DNA from: an uncultured Bacteroidales bacterium | GTDB taxonomy: Bacteria; Bacteroidota; Bacteroidia; Bacteroidales; UBA932 | Length of the DNA: 38,108 bases | Assembly: GCA_944326225.1 (NCBI GenBank) | Contig: CALVDI010000020.1 | Location: forward strand, 1 to 38,108 | Direction: 5' to 3' | Part shown: piece by piece, positions 1 through 10,088 of the stretch | Layout: every line of letters starts with the position of its first letter | Position numbering within the stretch: the first letter of the stretch is position 1 | The notes under the pieces: generated by a model | Told to the model about the DNA's origin: nothing | What the model saw: only the letters and a program-made list of their open reading frames with translations | Databases searched by the model: none | Position numbers and translations under genes: made by a program

Positions 1-535
1 TTTCTGATGTACGATTGTTGCAATTTTTGATGTAGCCTCGTTGCCGATTTTGATGTATTCCTGATTTCCGGTTACACCAATCTTGCATCTTCTGTTTGTA
101 ATCGCTCAAGGTGCAGAAATTCTGACTCTGTTCACAGTCAGCGCACCATTTGCAGTTCGTATCGTCATCATCTACATCACTTAGATACTCATTGGTATTG
201 GCATTTACCCAAACCTGAATCTCAATTTTTCTTGAACCGCAAGCATCACAAACATATACATCTTCATCGTGAGGCTCCTTTCTTGTGGCCTTGCCATCAT
301 AGAGTGCCACAGCACGATTTACCAGCATCTCACGATTGTTGTCCGAGAGTTCGGCATAGAATCGTTCTGCCGCTCCGAGTATTGATTTACTTGCAAGGGA
401 GTTCCATTTCTCCCAGAAGTGCTTATAAGCTCCTCCGAAGGTGATTTTGCACTCTTCCTCGCCCCAAGCGTTCCACATATAGTAGTGGAAGCTCGATACT
501 GCATTTACAGGGTCTAATCTCATAGTCGTAATCAT
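1..535 (-). CDS. Hypothetical zinc-ribbon-like protein, 3' end cut by window edge
   Basis: The reverse strand is open from position 535 to the left edge, so about 178 residues are visible and the C-terminus is missing. The ATG at 535-533 overlaps the TAA of the upstream gene by one base (TAATG), which indicates translational coupling. A second in-frame ATG at 523-521 is also possible. The first ~75 residues are helix-rich with several Trp, Phe and Tyr. A CDACG motif follows, then a CKWCADC cluster and further cysteines about 40-60 residues later. This CxxC...CxxC pattern suggests a structural zinc site. It is the last visible gene of the mobile-element operon. I do not recognise the family, and a regulatory or DNA-binding role is only a guess. 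Confidence 0.72.
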   Translation of the reverse strand, partial: MITTMRLDPVNAVSSFHYYMWNAWGEEECKITFGGAYKHFWEKWNSLASKSILGAAERFYAELSDNNREMLVNRAVALYDGKATRKEPHDEDVYVCDACGSRKIEIQVWVNANTNEYLSDVDDDDTNCKWCADCEQSQNFCTLSDYKQKMQDWCNRKSGIHQNRQRGYIKNCNNRTSE

Positions 536-1110
536 TAAGCGTTATTATCTCTGTTCTCTTCCAACTGCTGCCATATGGCATCATACATTTGTTGCAACCA
601 ATCTATGTTGGATGCTCCGAGTTCAAACGGAGTATGGCAGGTAGCCTCAAAGTTTGCCTCCTTCTCGTGGGCTATAACAGTCATACTGTTGTCCGTCACT
701 TGAATACCTGTTACCTTGCACTCAAACGGGTCAGCATTATTGTCAAACCATATCACCCATACAGGATCATCCTGCTCTTCAGGGAAGGTTATCTCGGTCA
801 GTCCGTGCGAGTAGAGCAACTGCCTTATGGTATCAATGATGTCCTTGCGGAGTGTCTCTATCCTGTCGGAGAAGTCCATTTTCAGACGCTTTGTTTCGTT
901 CTCTTTCTCTGTGTAGGATAGAATCTGCATATCGGGGTGAACATCAAATTCCCAATCCACATCGTCATCATCGAGTGTCGTGTGGATATTACCACCCAAT
1001 ACCAGCCCGCAATCCCTTGTTACCATTGTGCGTGCTTCGTTGCGGTCATCTGCCGCTACGGTGTAAGTCCCCTCGAAAAGGTATCTTACCTTTACTTCAA
1101 TCTTCTTCAT
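535..1110 (-). CDS. Hypothetical protein (191 aa), mobile-element operon
   Basis: This is a soluble acidic protein with no signal peptide or membrane segment. The N-terminal ~65 residues (MKKIEVKVRY...) look like a small beta-rich domain and end in an Asp run at about residues 47-51. A predicted helix follows, then a C-terminal part starting near residue 110 that is rich in Trp and Glu. No catalytic motif is visible. It lies 28 bp after the 314-residue gene and its stop overlaps the start of the zinc-ribbon gene, so it is very probably cotranscribed. Many proteins of this kind sit in Bacteroidota conjugative elements without assigned roles. I do not assign a function. Confidence 0.75.
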   Translation of the reverse strand: MKKIEVKVRYLFEGTYTVAADDRNEARTMVTRDCGLVLGGNIHTTLDDDDVDWEFDVHPDMQILSYTEKENETKRLKMDFSDRIETLRKDIIDTIRQLLYSHGLTEITFPEEQDDPVWVIWFDNNADPFECKVTGIQVTDNSMTVIAHEKEANFEATCHTPFELGASNIDWLQQMYDAIWQQLEENRDNNA

Positions 1111-1138
1111 ACATTGATATTTTTATGGTTAATACTGA

Positions 1139-2083
1139 TTAGTTTGCCGGAACGATGCTTACCTGCTTGCCAAAAAAGGTATCGCAGACACCATAGACAT
1201 GCTTGATGGAGCAGTCATACTCGGAGCGTTCATTATCAAGTCGCAGGCGGAAGCCGTAGCCGTCCTTGCGTGCCTTATCCAGTCGGATTCTGACTTCGCT
1301 TTTTAGTTCCATTTCTATCAGACTGCCACCGCCATACATCGAACTGAACAGCCCGCAGGTGTTGCCTTTGGGGATAATGACCTCCTTTATTTTGAAGTCG
1401 GCATCGTAGAGGTCGCGGAGGTTTACAAGACCGATATAGGTAAGCAGATTGGCTCCACAGCAGGAGTTCTCCAACTCCTGGCAGAAGTCCTCGTAGGATA
1501 CCTGCTCCTTGCCGTCACGATACTTCTTGTTCGGGAACCTTCCATATACCGTATAGCCTTTCTCCGTCAATGCCTTCTTCACCTTTGCAGGGTTGAGGTG
1601 AAGAGTATCTATCATATCTCCGAGGTAACTCTCCTTGTATCGGAAGCCACCTTGTGACTCCAACCAACAGGAGTTGATGCAGTCGTAGTTGGATAGCATC
1701 TCCACCCGTACAGGAATATCTCTGGTATTCTTGATAAGGTCGTTTACCGTTGTGGAGTCGTCACGCTCGCGTATCTCGTCCCTTATCTCATCATCGTGTT
1801 CATCGAAGAAGGCTTCAACCTCGTCCTCCTCAAAGTCGTGGAAGTCGATGCAGTGGCTCTTCAGTCCTTTGATAATCTCTTGTGTTGCCTGCTCCTCGGC
1901 ATCCTCGTACCAATCCTCGACCTTAGACCATAGATCCTCGCAGCCTTGTTTCTCAAGGCATTGTTGCAAGAGGTTTCGGTTCTCATCAAAACTTTCCCGA
2001 TAGTCCACCCATACGAGGGTGTATTTCTCATCCATTATGCTTTCTATAAACTGCATTGTGAGTGTTTTCTTTGCTTCGTTCAT
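1139..2083 (-). CDS. Hypothetical acidic protein (314 aa), mobile-element operon
   Basis: The N-terminal ~120 residues are strongly acidic, with long Asp/Glu stretches around residues 80-105 (FEEDEVEAFFDEHDDEI). Acidic surfaces like this occur in DNA-mimic antirestriction proteins, but that link is inference only. The middle contains NYDCINSCWL, and the C-terminal third contains NSCCGANLLTYIGL and a glycine cluster (SMYGGGSLIEMEL) followed by beta-like segments. There is no signal peptide, transmembrane helix or recognised catalytic motif. The gene follows the 95-residue gene after an 84-bp gap, the widest gap in this block. A small overlapping reading frame in that gap ends on its start codon but looks spurious. 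Confidence 0.75.
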   Translation of the reverse strand: MNEAKKTLTMQFIESIMDEKYTLVWVDYRESFDENRNLLQQCLEKQGCEDLWSKVEDWYEDAEEQATQEIIKGLKSHCIDFHDFEEDEVEAFFDEHDDEIRDEIRERDDSTTVNDLIKNTRDIPVRVEMLSNYDCINSCWLESQGGFRYKESYLGDMIDTLHLNPAKVKKALTEKGYTVYGRFPNKKYRDGKEQVSYEDFCQELENSCCGANLLTYIGLVNLRDLYDADFKIKEVIIPKGNTCGLFSSMYGGGSLIEMELKSEVRIRLDKARKDGYGFRLRLDNERSEYDCSIKHVYGVCDTFFGKQVSIVPAN

Positions 2084-2167
2084 TTGTCGTTACCTGTGTA
2101 CGGCAGGATTCTGTTTCCCGTACATATGTCTATAAATGCGAAGAGCGACCTTGTGGCCGCCCTTCGG

Positions 2168-2455
2168 TTACTCTTTACCGTTGAATATCTCTTCGTATCT
2201 CTCTTTCTCCATCTCCGTCTCTGCATTGAAACTGAAATGTGCCGAATATCGGTATCCAGTTCGAGGATTGCCACCGAACTTTTGGATAGCCATATCTATC
2301 TCCCAATCCACTTCACCTATACCGAGCGATATGCGGTCATAGTGCAGCAGGTGGTGAGCCAATCGCAGTGCAGCGTCGGTCTTTCTCTCTTGCCTCAGAT
2401 GGTCGAAGGCTCGTATCGCTATCTCTCTGTTGGATACCTTGATTGTCGTTCCCAT
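2168..2455 (-). CDS. Small hypothetical protein (95 aa), mobile-element operon
   Basis: This short soluble protein begins MGTTIKVSNREIAIRAF and has a helical N-terminal half followed by a segment with several aromatic residues. It lies 12 bp downstream of the 104-residue gene in the same direction. There is no known motif. The reading frame stays open for about 25 codons after its TAA (KGGHKVALRIYRH...), which may be chance. Its evidence as a gene is position and strand consistency within a packed operon. Confidence 0.62.
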   Translation of the reverse strand: MGTTIKVSNREIAIRAFDHLRQERKTDAALRLAHHLLHYDRISLGIGEVDWEIDMAIQKFGGNPRTGYRYSAHFSFNAETEMEKERYEEIFNGKE

Positions 2456-2467
2456 ATTCTTTGATGG

Positions 2468-2782
2468 TTAGTTGAATACTCTCTCATCATTCTCTTTATC
2501 CTTTGCTGCAAGCATACAGAACGGCATATCCAATATGCGATGTGAGAAGCACATATCGGAGTTGTAGTCCGTGCGTTGCCACAGCGTGAACCTCTCATCG
2601 GCAAACGACCATCGGAAATATCCCGACAGTGAGCCGAATAGAGGGTTTACATTCCTTGCTATGAGATACCTGTTCACATCCATAATGTGCTTTGCGATGA
2701 GTATGATGTTTAGTATCTCCACAAATGCCAACTGCGAGTATGGGTCAATCGGCATTACCGGTCCTTTGAAACTGATTTCCAT
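2468..2782 (-). CDS. Small hypothetical protein (104 aa), mobile-element operon
   Basis: The protein starts MEISFKGPVMPIDPYSQLAF. The first ~40 residues contain a moderately hydrophobic stretch (LAFVEILNIILIAKHIM, residues 18-34) that could be an amphipathic or membrane-associated helix. The rest is soluble and aromatic (GYFRWSFADERFTLW). It sits 12 bp after the ArdA-like gene and 12 bp before the 95-residue gene, which supports cotranscription. No family is recognised. Confidence 0.65.
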   Translation of the reverse strand: MEISFKGPVMPIDPYSQLAFVEILNIILIAKHIMDVNRYLIARNVNPLFGSLSGYFRWSFADERFTLWQRTDYNSDMCFSHRILDMPFCMLAAKDKENDERVFN

Positions 2783-2794
2783 ATATCCTTTATT

Positions 2795-3298
2795 TTAGTT
2801 GTAGTTATCATCGAATATCTCATACTGAAGAGGAAGCATATCGCAGAAGTTGCCCGATATGCCTGTATATACCAAAGCATCATCGGCGATGTCTGCAAGT
2901 TCCTCTTCGGTCTCCTGTATGGTGTTACCGTATATATCCTGATAGTGCGATACCATCATATGCGGATCATCGGTTGTTATGTCATATCCGAAGTGTTCGC
3001 TCCAAGTGACGAAATACTCCCTTTCGTTCTCATCGAGCCTTTCCATGGCATCGCGTATCTCGAAGAAGTTGGGACATATCCACTCTCGGTTTATCAGCCT
3101 GTCGGGTATGTTCTCCCATTTGGCATATCTGTACTCCGGTTCCTCTTCTTCGGGAAAGAGGTCGGAGCAGGCACAGAGGAATTCTCCCATATCGCTGTAG
3201 TCGGACATCTGCACCCAGTAGTCCTTGTACTCTTTCCCGTCTAAGATGTGCTGTGTGGTTACGGCAACCTCGGCATTGTTCAAATCCATATTTTCCAT
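2795..3298 (-). CDS. ArdA-like antirestriction protein
   Basis: The product has 167 residues with about one quarter Asp/Glu. ArdA proteins are acidic DNA mimics that bind type I restriction-modification complexes and protect incoming conjugative DNA. The ArdA-like layout is visible: a short N-terminal beta region, an acidic linker near residues 49-56 (PEEEEPEYRY), a helix-rich core (RDAMERLDENEREYFVTWSE, residues 82-101) resembling the family's antirestriction segment, and a C-terminal acidic helix (ETEEELADIADD, residues 129-140) before a short beta end. Similarity is by pattern only, so the family call is likely but not certain. It lies 11 bp downstream of the methyltransferase-helicase gene and is probably cotranscribed with it, which fits a shared antirestriction role. 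Confidence 0.66.
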   Translation of the reverse strand: MENMDLNNAEVAVTTQHILDGKEYKDYWVQMSDYSDMGEFLCACSDLFPEEEEPEYRYAKWENIPDRLINREWICPNFFEIRDAMERLDENEREYFVTWSEHFGYDITTDDPHMMVSHYQDIYGNTIQETEEELADIADDALVYTGISGNFCDMLPLQYEIFDDNYN

Positions 3299-3309: not shown

Positions 3310-6300
3310 TTAACTTGTTACTCGCTGGCTTCCCCAGCTGATATGTATCTTACCCTCGCTGTCCGTAGAGCGTATCAGCAGGCTGTCGATGACCGACATG
3401 GTGATATCGAACTCCTCGAAGATTTCCGACTGCTCCTTCACTTCGCCCGTCTTGATGAACTCGTTGAGACGCTCTTTGGTGAGTACCAATGCCATCAGGT
3501 TCTGCTCCACGGAGTCCTCGTAGGTGACATAATGCACATCCTTCATCTCCTTGGAGTCGAGGCGTATGAAGCGGAAGTAGAACTGCTCCATCTTGGGTAT
3601 GTTCCATTGCAGTGACTCCAGTATCACATCGTTGCAGGTAGGTATGTTTACCGAACTGCTCAGGCTCTGCTGCGTGCATATCAGTATGCCGTTGATGGTG
3701 GAGTCGAACTCCGTCACGATGCTTTGACGCTTCTTGAATGCCACATCTCCCTTCACGACATATATCGGTCTGTCGGGAAAGCGTTCGCTGATATAGCTCT
3801 CGTAGAGGTCAAAGGCAGCAAGGGTGGTACAGCCGATGGCTACCTTGCCGGGTATCTTGCGTATCAATGATTCTATGTATCGTGTCTTGCTCGGATAGTC
3901 ATCGCCGTAGTATCCCGATATGAGGTGTGGTACCGAACAAGCCTTGATAAGCAGCTTTATCTGTCGCATAAGCCTCAGTCCTGCATCCTTCTTCGTGTCA
4001 CCCGTGCTGTTATAGTATAGTTCGCATATACGGCAGAACTCCTCGATGATAACACGATAGACCTCGTGCTCGCCCTCTGAGGGGCTTACGGTGTGTGTCC
4101 GTATCTTGTATTTCTCGCCTGCGAAGTCTCGGAACTTACGGGTGATGATGGTCTTGCCTATGAGGTCGAAGAGTTCATCCTTGTTATAGACATCCTGATT
4201 CTGCTTCTCTATGCCGAATACCGTTGCCTTACCCGGACAGTGGCAGGCACGGAACAGCACATGACCTCTGAATGCTGGGAACGGCTCTCCGCAGTGGAGA
4301 TTTCGTTCACACTCTATCTCCTTATCCCGATTCTCATGATAGATACTGCTACACCAGCAGGTCATATTGACCGAGTTGTTGTATAGCAGTTCAAATTGAC
4401 TATACAGTTCTGCGATATTGTTACGGGTGGTTGTTCCCGTATCGAGAATCTTGTATTTGAGCCTGCGGAACACTGCCAGGATATGCTTTGTGCGTTGTGA
4501 TGATGGGTTGGTAATCTCGTCCGACTCATCGAACACAAGGCATAGTTTCCTTGACGATAGTTTCACAAATCGCATAAGGTCGCGTTTGAGCTTGCCTACC
4601 ATAGAGGTGGATAGCAGCAGGAAGATCCCTCTCGGCACATCTTCAAGATCCTTGTATGTGCGTATCACTCTGTATCGCTCCTTGTTGATGGCGAGGAACG
4701 GAGTCCAGGTCATATTGGTGGCAATGGCAGGGGCAAGTATCACCACATTGCGTACCTTGCCATATTTGAGCAGATACTTTGCTCTGTGATATACTGCGGC
4801 AGTCTTGCCTGAGCCTTGCTGCCAGTTGAGCAGAGCATATCGCTTCTGAAGCACAAGGTTCAGGTCGTGCTTCTGCAACTGCGTGAACTCGCACACCTCG
4901 CCATCCTTGTTTACGAAGGTGGCATTGTCAAGATACTCGGCAAGGGCATCGTCCGTTTCCATATCGGAGAATAGCTGGTTCTGTATATCATAGAGCCAAC
5001 GCTTACGGCGGATAAGCCTTTTGGCGATGCGTATCTGTCGCATATTCTCTTCTGTTGCTATCTCCGGCATAGGCAGTACGGTGCTATCCAATATGAGGTC
5101 ATTGATGCTTGCCGCCTTATGTTCCACCTTGTCAAGCAGTCGTGGTGCATACTGCTTGAGCTTGAAGCCGTAGGAGGTCTTTACCAATGCCACCTCCTTG
5201 CGTGGCACGACATTCTGCGAGGTGATATACTTGCGTATGGTGGCCAGCACTTTGGCAGTGGTCAGCTTCTTGCGTTCCCACTCCTTCATCTGCTCGTTGG
5301 TGGCATTTTCGGGTGGCTTCTGGTTACGGAACTTGGTAACAAGGGCCACAGCCTTGTCGATATGCTTGTTGAGCCTTGCGTGAGCCTTCAACTCGTACAT
5401 ATACTTGGCGAGCTTGTACTCGAACTGTTCCAACTCCTCCTTGTCTATGCGGTTGGTCTCACGCATAAGGTCAAGACGCAGGCGGTGCTTCATCTCGCGG
5501 GCTTTCTTCACACGCTCCTTGAGTTCTGCCATAGAGACAAACTCCTCGGCATTGTAGGGATTCATCTCTATATGCTGTGAGCGACGCAGGAAGACCATTA
5601 TCTTGGTGTTGAAGTTATCTACACCTACCGATGTGAAGGCGTGAGGTGCTAACCTTGTCTGTCCGATGAAGGAGAAGTCCTCGTTTACTCTTCCTACACG
5701 GCTCTTCTCCCAGAACTCATTCTGCATAAAGGAGGCAGGAACGATAATCATCAGGAATCCTGCGGGATTGAGCAGATGGTAGGCTTTGTCGATGTAATAC
5801 TCCTGTGATAGTCGGAAGTCGAACTTCAGATTGAACGGAGGATTACCGATGATGGCATCAAAGCGTTGCTCGGAGTGGTACTGCTGTATGTCGCACTTCT
5901 CGATATGTGCATCGGGATAGAGATACCTTGCCACTGCCACAGCCTTGCTGTCTATGTCAAAGCCGTAGGCGTTGTGTTGGTTCGGCAGATGGTTGAAGAA
6001 GTTGCCCATACCGCAACACATATCGAGAATCATCTCCGATGATGTGGGAGAGAGTACATCTACCATATCCCGACATACCTCGTGCGGTGTGAAGAACTGT
6101 CCCATCTCGAACTCCTTCTTTGCCTCGGCATACTCGTGGTAGCTGGCGAAGTCCGACTGCTTGAGGTTGTGCAGTCCTCCGATACCCGTATAGCAGTTGT
6201 ATATACTCTCCGCAGGAATCATATCCTTACCGGAGTTGATGGCAAAGAGAATCTTCTCGTTGATCTCTGCACGCTTGCCTTGCGGTATCTGTTGTGGTAT

Positions 6301-6393: not shown

Positions 6394-7353
6394 TCAATTC
6401 TCGTCTCTTAGTTTGATCTCATTTAGTCGCAGTCGCTTGAAACAACTCTCGGCCGTTGCACTGTCCTTGAACTTGACATCAATACGACCATTGGCATAGA
6501 ACTTCATGTTCGAGGCATTGGTGGTGGTCAGGTCATACCAACGGGAAATATCTACATTACGGGTGTCAAGCCCCATAATCATCTCGATACTGCCACAGAG
6601 TACATCATCTGCACCGAAAGCAATGCCTTCGCAGAACTGGCTAACCTTACGGTCAGAGTCATATTCGAAGTCATATTCCTTGTAATACTGATAGTGAATC
6701 GAATCCCAAGTAACAATGTCGGGGAAGATGATTTTATCCTTCTTCAGTTCAGGCTTCACCTTGCTCCAGCAAGAAGGTCTGACAGTATTGAGGAAGCGTT
6801 TGATAAGCTCCTCCTCGGCAGTATCTCGGAAACTCTTGCCTCCGAGATGTTCGATGACCACATCTACATAGGTGTTATATACAGGTCGGAAGTCTATCGG
6901 CAGAGTCTTCTCGTCAATCTTTGGTGCTTCAACAGAGACGCTGTATGTGTTGTTGAAATAGCCGATGATGCGACTGATGAAGTTCCTGATAGCATTATGG
7001 CGGCTATCCACCAACTCATTGATGTTCTTGAAAGGAGTAAACTCGTGATGGGTATAATCCTTCTCATCATTATTGTAGCGATAGTGGAGGTCATAGCTGC
7101 TTGTGGTAATCTTACCGTTCGGCTCGTGCTTGAGTTTGATTTTACCCTCATACTTCTCGGCTTCTCTCTTGAAGATGTTGTACCACCAGGCAATCTGGTC
7201 GAGCGTCTTGTAAAGCTCGTCCTGCTGATTCTGGCAATAGATACGGTCTTGCTCCGTAATCTTCTCTTCGTTTCTCACTTGTACCTTCAAGATACCTGAT
7301 AGCAGGTCGGTATGACCGACTGCTTGACTGTTGTTTAATACTGCTTGTGACAT
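6394..7353 (-). CDS. DUF4942 domain protein
   Basis: The product has about 319 residues from the chosen start. It resembles the DUF4942 family found on Bacteroidota mobile elements, with three recognisable segments: LGGKSFRDTAEEELIKRFLN, IIFPDIVTWDSIHYQ, and near the C-terminus SRWYDLTTTNASNMKFYANG followed by RIDVKF. The molecular role of this family is not established, although members often lie beside DNA methylases. I chose the ATG at 7353 (MSQAVLNNSQ) over the one at 7404. The longer version would begin MGTPAPNSRT inside the palindromic leader, and the AT-rich stretch before 7353 is a more typical Bacteroidota initiation region. It is the first gene of the minus-strand operon and is separated from the next by a terminator-like hairpin. 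Confidence 0.72.
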   Translation of the reverse strand: MSQAVLNNSQAVGHTDLLSGILKVQVRNEEKITEQDRIYCQNQQDELYKTLDQIAWWYNIFKREAEKYEGKIKLKHEPNGKITTSSYDLHYRYNNDEKDYTHHEFTPFKNINELVDSRHNAIRNFISRIIGYFNNTYSVSVEAPKIDEKTLPIDFRPVYNTYVDVVIEHLGGKSFRDTAEEELIKRFLNTVRPSCWSKVKPELKKDKIIFPDIVTWDSIHYQYYKEYDFEYDSDRKVSQFCEGIAFGADDVLCGSIEMIMGLDTRNVDISRWYDLTTTNASNMKFYANGRIDVKFKDSATAESCFKRLRLNEIKLRDEN

Positions 7354-7376
7354 AACATTATTATATTTCTTGTTAG

Positions 7377-7396
7377 TCCGGCTATTCGGGGCCGGA
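7377..7396. other. Short perfect hairpin in the leader of the DUF4942 gene
   Basis: TCCGGC (7377-7382) and GCCGGA (7391-7396) flank an 8-nt loop. The hairpin ends 24 bp upstream of the chosen ATG at 7353 and overlaps the outer edge of the long palindrome. Formation of one structure would compete with the other, a layout compatible with a regulatory switch, although that role is inferred. Confidence 0.5.
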
Positions 7397-7575
7397 GTTC
7401 CCAAACTACAGGCTCTAAAAGGTCGTGTTCTCGTCAGGCAAGGTTGTGTGGAAAAATACAGAAAGCCCCACGGGGCGAGGATGATTTTTCCACGACACCC
7501 GCAGGGCTTGACCTTGCTTGGACGAAAAGAACACGAGTTACCTTTGCCTGTGGTTTGGTGAACTCGGCTACGAAT
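7384..7575. repeat. ~190-nt imperfect palindrome upstream of antirestriction operon
   Basis: The left arm (7384-7457) and right arm (7484-7575) are imperfect reverse complements. Shared blocks in order are ATTCG, AGTTC, CCAAAC, ACAGGC, AAAGGT, TCGTGTTCT, CGTC, GCAAGGT and GTGGAAAAAT, separated by small bulges. The right arm has an extra ~11-nt insertion. The loop holds a nested hairpin, GCCCC-AC-GGGGC (7465-7476). No convincing gene lies in it. It sits between the mobile-element operon and the chromosomal core, directly upstream of the first element gene. It could be an oriT-type, single-strand promoter or replication structure, or a structured leader RNA. The sequence alone does not decide. 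Confidence 0.8.
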
Positions 7576-7646
7576 CTGTTATGTCATTATCTTTATCACA
7601 TAGATAGTTTTTAAGGTACGGATTCTTATAATTGGAGAAAAAATCG

Positions 7647-7654
7647 TATCTTTG
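7647..7654 (+). promoter_or_regulatory. Orphan -7 promoter box
   Basis: TATCTTTG matches the Bacteroidota -7 consensus TAnnTTTG and is followed by GCAC. No well-spaced -33 TTG is present, and no gene begins within 200 bp. It might drive a small RNA or be a chance match. Confidence 0.3.
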
Positions 7655-7853
7655 CACTTAGAAAAGAGTTATTTGAAAAGCATGAGGAATATAGTGTAAC
7701 AAAACAAGTTAGCAATTTCTTATCCATTGCCCATTCTCATGCAAGTTCTTCTTAATGGTTTGATACTCAAAGAATCTTAATCAAACTACATCAAATATAG
7801 AAATATGCAGTGTCTGCGCAAAATAAACCGTCTGCTGTGATTGTTCGGAGGTG

Positions 7854-8840: not shown

Positions 8841-10088
8841 ATGTCTGCAGGAAAAAGGAAATCCGATGAGCTGCTCGCGATGATACGCGGAGGGCTGCCC
8901 ATGTCTACCGGGCAGCAGCTGCGGCTTACGCTTATGTTGAGCGTACCGGCGGTGCTGGCCCAGCTCTCCTCGATAGTGATGCAGTATATTGACGCAGCCA
9001 TGGTCGGAAGTCTCGGGGCCGGCCCGTCGGCATCCATCGGTCTGGTGTCCACTTCAACGTGGCTTTTCAGCGGCATCTGTTCGGCTGTGGCGATTGGCTT
9101 CTCAGTGCAGGTGGCCCATGCCATCGGGGCCGGCGACATGACTAATGCCCGGGCTGTTCTGCGTCAGGCGATACTGTCCGTCAGTGTCTTCGGCCTGTTG
9201 TGGGGTGCCGCAGGCGTGTCAGTCAGCGGAGCCTTGCCGCATTGGCTGGGCGGAGACGAGTCTATCTGTCATGACTCGTCCGGTTACTTCAGGATATATT
9301 CTGCCTTCCTGCCGGTCTTTCAGATATACGTACTCTCGTCCGGAATGCTGCGTTGCAGCGGCAACATGCGTATCCCGAGTATGATGAGCGTGCTGATGTG
9401 TCTCCTGGATGTGGTCTTCAATTTTTTCCTGATATTTCCCACCAGGGAGATGACCGTCCTGGGTATGAGCGTGACAATGCCCGGAGCGGGTTGGGGTGTG
9501 AAAGGGGCTGCCTTGGGCACGGGCCTGGCGGAGGCCGTGGTTGCCGTAATCCTTATGCGGTATCTTTTCAGCCGTTCCGGGGATTTGAGACTCAAAGGCG
9601 AGCGTGGCCGTTTCATCCCTACTGCCGAGACATTGCGCAAGGCAGTCCGTATAGGCTTGCCTATGGCCATAGAGCATGCTGTCATCTGCGGGGCGCAGAT
9701 AATGACTACTGTGATAGTTGCCCCTCTGGGTATTTTCGCGATAGCGGCCAACTCGTTCGCCGTCACCGCCGAGAGCCTCTGCTACATGCCCGGTTACGGT
9801 ATCGCGGATGCCGCTACTACCCTGGTGGGCCAGAGCTATGGGGCCGGCAGGAAGGACCTTACCCGCCAGTTCGCAAGGATAACCGTTCTCATGGGCATGA
9901 CCGTGATGGGGGTGATGGGCGTGGTGATGTATTTCGGTGCGTCTGTCGCTGGCCTGGCTGCTGGCTCCGGCAATGGGACTGGCCGGGGTCTGGACAGCCA
10001 TGTGCGCGGAACTGTGTTTCCGAGGCCTGATTTTCCTGCTTGGTCTCAGGATAGTCTTCCGCAAAAAGCACTAACTTTGCGCCCATGA
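8841..10088 (+). CDS. MATE family efflux transporter with internal deletion and frameshift
   Basis: The first ~370 codons encode a MATE-type multidrug/cation antiporter with repeated hydrophobic segments and the family's two-fold layout. Near 9930-9952 the frame changes. The read frame continues as an unrelated tail to 10088. A second frame (9952-10074) encodes AWLLAPAMGLAGVWTAMCAE and a basic end (RIVFRKKH), which is the normal MATE C-terminus with its last helix. Compared with usual ~440-460-residue members, about 60-70 residues between these points (loop plus about one helix) are missing. The protein as read lacks a proper end and is probably non-functional, unless the change is an assembly error. 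It follows the CDF gene by 18 bp. Confidence 0.82.
   Translation: MSAGKRKSDELLAMIRGGLPMSTGQQLRLTLMLSVPAVLAQLSSIVMQYIDAAMVGSLGAGPSASIGLVSTSTWLFSGICSAVAIGFSVQVAHAIGAGDMTNARAVLRQAILSVSVFGLLWGAAGVSVSGALPHWLGGDESICHDSSGYFRIYSAFLPVFQIYVLSSGMLRCSGNMRIPSMMSVLMCLLDVVFNFFLIFPTREMTVLGMSVTMPGAGWGVKGAALGTGLAEAVVAVILMRYLFSRSGDLRLKGERGRFIPTAETLRKAVRIGLPMAIEHAVICGAQIMTTVIVAPLGIFAIAANSFAVTAESLCYMPGYGIADAATTLVGQSYGAGRKDLTRQFARITVLMGMTVMGVMGVVMYFGASVAGLAAGSGNGTGRGLDSHVRGTVFPRPDFPAWSQDSLPQKALTLRP
10072..10079 (+). promoter_or_regulatory. Possible -7 box before murF-alr
   Basis: TAACTTTG matches TAnnTTTG and lies 5 bp before the ATG at 10085. No -33 element at the proper distance is seen. If used, the mRNA would be almost leaderless. 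The box overlaps the TAA of the original MATE frame. Confidence 0.3.

Follow-up and report, generated by a model that had tools for sequence, protein, structure and literature searches.

Our analysis suggests that the long hairpin lying before the antirestriction genes of this DNA is a promoter that works from single-stranded DNA, like Frpo of the F plasmid, and we give this sequence-based reading a probability of roughly 70%. The window, i.e. the whole stretch of 38,108 nucleotides that was analysed, comes from an uncultured Bacteroidales bacterium. The initial annotation had already proposed a Frpo/ssi-like element here, and the proposal is now supported by the covariation of the arms, the sigma-ABfr boxes in the folded strand, a strand bias, and the ArdA, ArdC and methylase genes found behind the copies. 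In F-type plasmids, early expression from incoming single strands gets the anti-defence genes working in time. To our knowledge, such a single-stranded-DNA promoter switch on entry has until now been described mainly for E. coli-type plasmids. The Bacteroidota are a dominant gut phylum, are rich in conjugative elements and use a different sigma factor.

The hairpin, its operon and the element end

With DNA energies, the region 7370-7590 folds into a single long hairpin with 7384-7575 paired (-59.3 kcal/mol, z -9.2, with a shuffle mean of -27.7), and the RNA fold is a long hairpin as well (-103.9 kcal/mol, z -7.9); none of 200 shuffles was as good in either case. The long imperfect palindrome noticed earlier in the letters is borne out, since the span of the fold is identical and the pairing runs over nearly the full length. 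Bulges are present, and the tip is nested and GC-rich. The hairpin matches its own covariance model on the opposite strand too (7399-7559, + strand, 25 bits), as palindromes should. The coordinates of all the features are collected in Table 1.

According to passages of PMC7366714, the Bacteroidota housekeeping factor sigma-ABfr reads a -7 box TAnnTTTG and a TTTG near -33. The far arm of the window hairpin carries an exact -7 box with a -33-like CTTG ahead of it. In the modelled fold of the + strand, this box would serve as the non-template strand and the arm 7406-7423 as the template, the direction being into the genes, with four unpaired bases on either side of the -7 helix (7536-7539 and 7414-7417). 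Once the DNA is duplex, the box faces away from the operon, and the other strand of the opposite arm reads only GACCTTTTA. The A/T-rich apical stem may take an UP-element-like position.

The hairpin lies directly upstream of minus-strand genes, the first start codon being at 7353-7351. Two of the gene neighbours claimed earlier stand, namely the N6-methylase/helicase, which phrog_24008 of PHROGs matches at 1007 bits, and the ArdA-like gene, while the DUF4942 label of the first gene is unsupported here, as the protein encoded at 6394-7353 has no Pfam match even at E up to 10. The ArdA-like protein is without a Pfam match of its own; its two ArdA-type relatives in Table 1 (L170 and L113) are the first genes behind hairpins of the same family.

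The homology to other copies ends at 7799-7815, beyond which chromosomal CDF/MATE/Mur genes follow, and the integrated element therefore ends ~230 nt beyond the hairpin. Four relatives (L008, L010, L011 and L019), when compared with window positions 7603-7805, have ~0.3 to 1.6 kb extra on the stretch from the hairpin to the conserved element end, so that the hairpin-side element end seems to be a site of DNA gain or loss.

Table 1. Features of the hairpin, of the operon and of the element end in the window, and the inverted repeat before mobA in two other elements
Feature	Position	Strand	Remarks
Entire imperfect palindrome / single-strand hairpin	7384..7575		folds
Hairpin-family core, sense of the downstream genes	7400..7560	-	covariance model R1, window in its seed
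TACCTTTGC, exact sigma-ABfr -7 box (TAnnTTTG)	7539..7547	+	would be the non-template promoter strand if the + strand folds
-33-like element CTTG	7513..7516	+	22 nt before the -7 box
Opposite arm, which would supply the template at the -7 region once the + strand folds	7406..7423	+	7414-7417 unpaired
GGAAAAATA, A/T-rich apical stem, left half	7450..7458	+	conserved among relatives
GATTTTTCC, A/T-rich apical stem, right half	7483..7491	+	fold
Small side hairpin between the apical stem and the -33-like element	7498..7506	+	fold
Operon gene 1, phrog_27491-like, function unknown	6394..7353	-	4.7e-15, its only strong match
N6-DNA-methylase and helicase fusion, 1000 aa	3310..6312	-	phrog_24008; weak DarB-like antirestriction match phrog_10089
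ArdA-like protein	2795..3298	-	38% identity over 123 aa to a Pfam ArdA protein (L170); 72% to L113
Further same-strand ORFs 2468-2782, 2168-2455, 1139-2083, 535-1110	535..2782	-	no family reaches the cut-off
Terminal stretch of the integrated element	7576..7805		homology to other copies ends 7799-7815
Inverted repeat before mobA	~129980-130110 of G539:C11 (L099); ~3124520-3124690 of G536:C1		two elements compared

The hairpin family and the genes behind its copies

A search with the first protein of the operon yielded 26 loci, 23 of them from species genomes and 3 from a viral collection. The hairpin is upstream of the first gene in 23 of these 26 loci, directly or before one additional gene, and the extra gene ahead of the phrog_27491-like gene in some relatives is a DUF4121 gene. 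The remaining three loci (L022, L024 and L025) start within the gene or 18 nt before it. A second hairpin follows 4-5 kb further on the same strand in L013, L015-L018 and L027-L029. One contig of the window's own genome (L003, G000:C77) ends at 3525-3570 inside an 89% identical hairpin arm, and hence this genome seems to hold a second, partial copy at which the assembly broke.

A covariance model was built from 19 copies and used for the genome searches. It found the hairpin in 56 of 393 genomes of the order, covering 42 of 206 genera, and in 19 of 395 genomes sampled across the phylum, 15 of the 19 being outside the order. All 13 genomes or records reached through the loci matched the model, with as many as 22 copies in one genome and seven along a single strand of one element. 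In the plasmid collection, neither the window hairpin nor that of L028 had a match, and that of L013 had two weak ones. The L028 hairpin matches five unannotated records of the phage collection. Five hairpin-bearing IMG/VR records (L028, L029, L037, L040 and L045) are filed as viral and have no PF03432 relaxase in these fragments; possibly they are conjugative elements that were wrongly classed as viruses.

The initial annotation had made its reading depend on the conservation and covariation of the arms. The arms are conserved, and 44 of the 46 pairs change on both sides across all 108 matches, which include two mirror images from the other strand and give 96 distinct rows. About 30 of the 46 pairs, as counted by eye, occur in three or four Watson-Crick types, and 87.8% of the cells in this alignment are paired, compared with 61.8% in shuffled ones. 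Shuffling lowers the covariation score from 0.588 to 0.150, and sliding the partner by one column lowers it to 0.08, though the fitting of the alignment to the model raises the score. The side hairpin (helix 8) also has pair changes on both sides. The counts of boxes, strand energies and mismatches given below refer to 71 copies, i.e. the 108 matches minus the two mirror images and the copies more than 85% identical.

We predicted the downstream genes in 91 contexts, leaving aside identical copies and those with less than 800 nt downstream. The first ORF is in sense in 65 and antisense in 26 of them, the ORF calling being crude, and the median start distance for the 65 is 55 nt. An A/T-rich subfamily (L200, L203, L205, L151, L207, L208 and L166) keeps the fold and CAAAGGTA, and the first predicted ORFs downstream of all its seven copies are antisense and among the 26. 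The first genes behind hairpins include ArdA (L170), ArdC (L147), N6-methylase (L145) and ParB (L114), and in L156 PcfK and PcfJ are the second and third genes. Thus antirestriction and establishment genes stand behind the hairpin, as in the Frpo/ssi class.

Pfam matches were obtained for 13 of 20 proteins, which are a selection and not a census of the 91 contexts. The families, not all of which belong to first genes, are ArdA (5e-35), the ArdC N-terminal domain with its metallopeptidase, N6-methylase, DUF4121, DUF4326, PRTRC_E, MobV relaxase, ParB, PcfK, PcfJ, YspA SLOG, DnaJ and AAA_21. In L126 a relaxase gene that Pfam assigns to the MobV type (Mob_Pre) follows the hairpin at a distance of ~310 nt. 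L132 has the same layout, and its protein begins with nearly the same letters, the Pfam match being from L126 only; L190 has an ORF of equal size and place.

These gene contexts bear on the idea that the hairpin is an ssi/sso-like priming signal, which would recruit RNA polymerase or primase solely for starting the second strand, with the genes behind being incidental. It would fit the copies repeated along one strand of several elements, the template strand being the better folder (see below), and the 26 copies lacking a sense ORF close behind, and according to passages of PMC7736820 Frpo itself does both. However, the sense genes start near the hairpin in most contexts, anti-restriction genes recur there, and the boxes point into the gene. 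We consider a priming signal unlikely as the sole function, though it is compatible with the single-stranded-promoter reading and need not exclude it.

Promoter boxes, folding strand and transfer direction

The far arm, on the strand opposite the genes, has an exact TAnnTTTG in 48 of the 71 distinct copies where shuffling gives 1.4 by chance, and the near arm has one in the gene direction in a single copy. The box is inexact in the other 23. Allowing one mismatch adds 20 copies, and shuffles yield 20.9 for up to one mismatch, so that the exact count alone should be taken as evidence. CTTG is found in 60 of the 71 copies, with the TTG-to-box spacing being 22 nt in 20 copies and 23 nt in 11. The box side of the -7 helix is nearly invariant and its partner varies, and helix 3 is the least paired (74%); an invariant box side with a drifting partner is expected of a sequence that is read by sigma and is not kept by pairing. 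As far as the sequence tells, a Bacteroidota promoter in the correct orientation is laid out in the folded template strand, and the fold would reconstitute the host housekeeping promoter facing into the genes.

The strand opposite the genes folds better. For full hairpins with DNA energies it is the more stable one in 61 of the 71 copies and the less stable in 9. For the outer stems, in which the inner part was swapped for a neutral loop, the template strand is better in 60 of 71 (p about 1e-8) with DNA energies, and the antisense strand in 55 or 56 of 71 with RNA energies. The inner part by itself favours the strand opposite the genes by 47 to 22 with DNA energies and has no strand preference with RNA energies (42 to 29, p 0.13). 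The p-values are optimistic, as the copies are related by shared ancestry. Overall, this suggests that the template-sense strand functions as single-stranded DNA, and it argues against a leader RNA. Two windows of the F leading region lean the same way, these being 300-nt best-fold windows and not the mapped Frpo.

The mismatches give a mixed picture. Those of the main stem, 58 A.C to 40 G.T (p 0.085), lean to the template strand, while those of all pairs, 88 A.C to 134 G.T (p 0.002), lean the opposite way. The sign depends on the inner loops, which hold 71 of the G.T, and the alignment was fitted with RNA rules, where the model permits G-U and not A-C. Since the count over all pairs is significant in the wrong direction, it somewhat lowers our confidence in the single-stranded-promoter reading.

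This count would rather suit a structured leader RNA of the anti-restriction operon, such as a riboswitch, an attenuator or a protein-binding leader, which the initial annotation had listed as an alternative, and so would the stable RNA fold at the operon head. But the gene-sense outer stem folds worse even with RNA energies, and the upstream flanks differ between insertions. No minus-strand TAnnTTTG lies between 7331 and 7791, and the sole upstream one within the element end is at 7792. Rfam gave no matches for the window at the gathering threshold, and none for six relatives at E up to 1. We regard a leader RNA as quite improbable.

The boxes in the duplex form could fire outwards, and one might suppose a normal promoter of double-stranded DNA that reads away from the operon, the palindrome then serving as a regulator-binding or terminator structure. 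The + strand does hold a full CTTG-N22-TACCTTTGC pointing right, and in 35 of 90 copies an antisense ORF begins within 250 nt on that side. On the other side, however, 60 of the 90 have a sense ORF within 250 nt, the outward side in the window is the element end, and the covariation of the whole fold would be left unexplained. We would give this explanation very little weight.

We compared the strand of the hairpins with that of the PF03432 relaxases and CTnDOT TraJ for 94 copies, all from nine genomes in which relaxases were matched. Six IMG/VR records, in which neither PF03432 nor TraJ is matched, hold 15 further listed hairpin hits, three being mirrors; these hits and one copy of G000 were kept out, and adding them would only raise the number of copies with none. 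A PF03432 relaxase lies within 60 kb of 62 of the 94 copies, 55 on the same strand and 7 on the opposite one, and 32 are without one. TraJ within 60 kb is on the opposite strand for 48 copies and on the same for 2, with none for 44. When counted as clusters, 23 of 27 are on the relaxase strand and 4 opposite, with none mixed (p 3e-4). Two of the opposite clusters are in G536:C2, one in G434:C25 and one in G434:C9. Four of the seven opposite-strand copies (L200, L207, L208 and L166) belong to the A/T-rich subfamily. The four opposite clusters, and a subfamily without a sense gene close behind, weigh against the single-stranded-promoter reading.

In passages of Samuel et al. (PMC11541004) the relaxase gene is said to typically enter the recipient last. 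If this rule holds here, the shared strand implies that the hairpin-headed genes have the transferred strand as their template, which a Frpo-like promoter needs. The window's own genome, at 83% completeness, yielded neither a PF03432 relaxase nor TraJ. A relaxase is present in 5 of 11 genomes of close relatives, as far as the contig numbers tell none beside a hairpin locus, and hence the window-type element is only putatively conjugative. The family as a whole does not consist of ordinary repeats lying away from mobile elements, since most of the copies compared are in elements with conjugation genes.

A strongly conserved inverted repeat with its flank (GCAAGTTGTG ... CAAAACAACTTGC) lies just before mobA in two elements. 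It differs from the hairpin and is likely, judged by its sequence and place, to be the oriT of CTnDOT-type elements; a search for an IncP-type nic motif at this repeat gave nothing usable. On G539:C11, seven hairpins spread over 46 kb share one strand and lie on both sides of this repeat; one of them is a weak match (34.9 bits). The hairpin as an oriT, another earlier alternative, is therefore unlikely, as it is not a single site beside the relaxase gene. A transposable repeat (MITE) or a recombination signal of the element end would suit its place ~230 nt inside the end and the homology to L006, L007 and L023 stopping at its outer edge, but several copies per element with some of them internal, and diverged covarying copies that do not look like recent transposition, make these readings, along with the oriT one, highly improbable, the MITE being disfavoured by both covariation and position.

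Under the single-stranded-promoter reading, the element would enter the recipient during conjugation as one strand, presumably the + strand of the window, which is the template of the operon genes. The entering strand would fold so that the far arm gives the -33/-7 non-template strand and the near arm the template, with the A/T-rich apical stem lying at the place of an UP element. The host RNA polymerase with sigma-ABfr might then start near 7551, opposite about 7408, and transcribe leftwards into the methylase-helicase and ArdA-like genes, so that the anti-restriction proteins would be made before the DNA turns duplex. In the duplex form the boxes face away and the operon would fall silent. 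The RNAs started at the hairpin may also prime the second-strand synthesis.

Comparison with known single-stranded promoters

The closest known systems are the Frpo and ssi elements of plasmids F and ColIb-P9 (Frpo1, Frpo2, ssi2 and ssi3). Passages of PMC9849209 describe Frpo as a promoter formed from a folded single strand in vitro and as needed in vivo for the early expression of leading genes. Samuel et al. 2024 inferred Frpo-like single-stranded promoters at anti-defence islands from the fold and a promoter consensus, and as the passages of PMC11541004 tell, candidates were sought by BLAST similarity to five known Frpo/ssi elements and by the -35/-10 consensus. Such a design would probably miss sigma-ABfr promoters, and 'bacteroid' is absent from the main text of this source. 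Passages of PMC3969726 state that the ardA genes of plasmids and transposons are in general expressed from a single-stranded promoter on entry. A B. fragilis ArdA is among the proteins studied there, the sentence on the promoter cites the ColIb-P9 work and one other reference, and these passages describe no Bacteroides promoter. In the open PMC papers, which leave subscription papers and preprints outside the search, 'Bacteroides' and 'Frpo' co-occur only as FrpoB-seq, an rpoB method.

Any search built on known Frpo sequences or on -35/-10 boxes would miss single-stranded promoters in Bacteroidota. The covariance model of the family would name the element genes that act first in the recipient, many of which have no known function, and makes the question of early expression testable with a reporter. 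We lean, at somewhat better than even odds, towards a broader view in which the Bacteroidota evolved their own class of single-stranded-DNA promoter, independently of the Proteobacteria and tuned to sigma-ABfr. This class would have spread through the phylum on conjugative elements with up to seven repeats per strand, and a whole gene programme (anti-restriction, methylase, ParB, PRTRC, PcfJ/K and even a relaxase gene) would be read from the incoming strand before it turns duplex.

The hairpin shares with Frpo/ssi a mismatched hairpin before anti-restriction or establishment genes, and here the fold is accompanied by conservation of the pairing. Both are repeated, with an 89% identical stretch recurring 5.4 kb away in F and the Bacteroidota hairpins being 4-7 kb apart in several elements. 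The promoter boxes of the F Frpo form in the folded strand, according to passages of PMC9849209, and the same geometry is predicted for the Bacteroidota hairpin. The leading-region genes ssb and psiB of F are on the strand of the tra genes, and the Bacteroidota copies are likewise mostly on the relaxase strand. An A/T-rich stem occurs in the F stretch as well as at the tip of the Bacteroidota hairpin. We found no sequence kinship with the F Frpo, as the best match of model R1 in F 48000-68000 has 11.1 bits and E 0.76 and lies at 9880-9912 of that stretch, away from the F repeats. Unlike Frpo, the Bacteroidota hairpin has sigma-ABfr boxes in place of -35/-10 and comes in up to seven copies per element, and its activity is a prediction. 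The comparison thus supports a hairpin family that is predicted to act as a promoter in the way Frpo does, yet forms a sequence family of its own.
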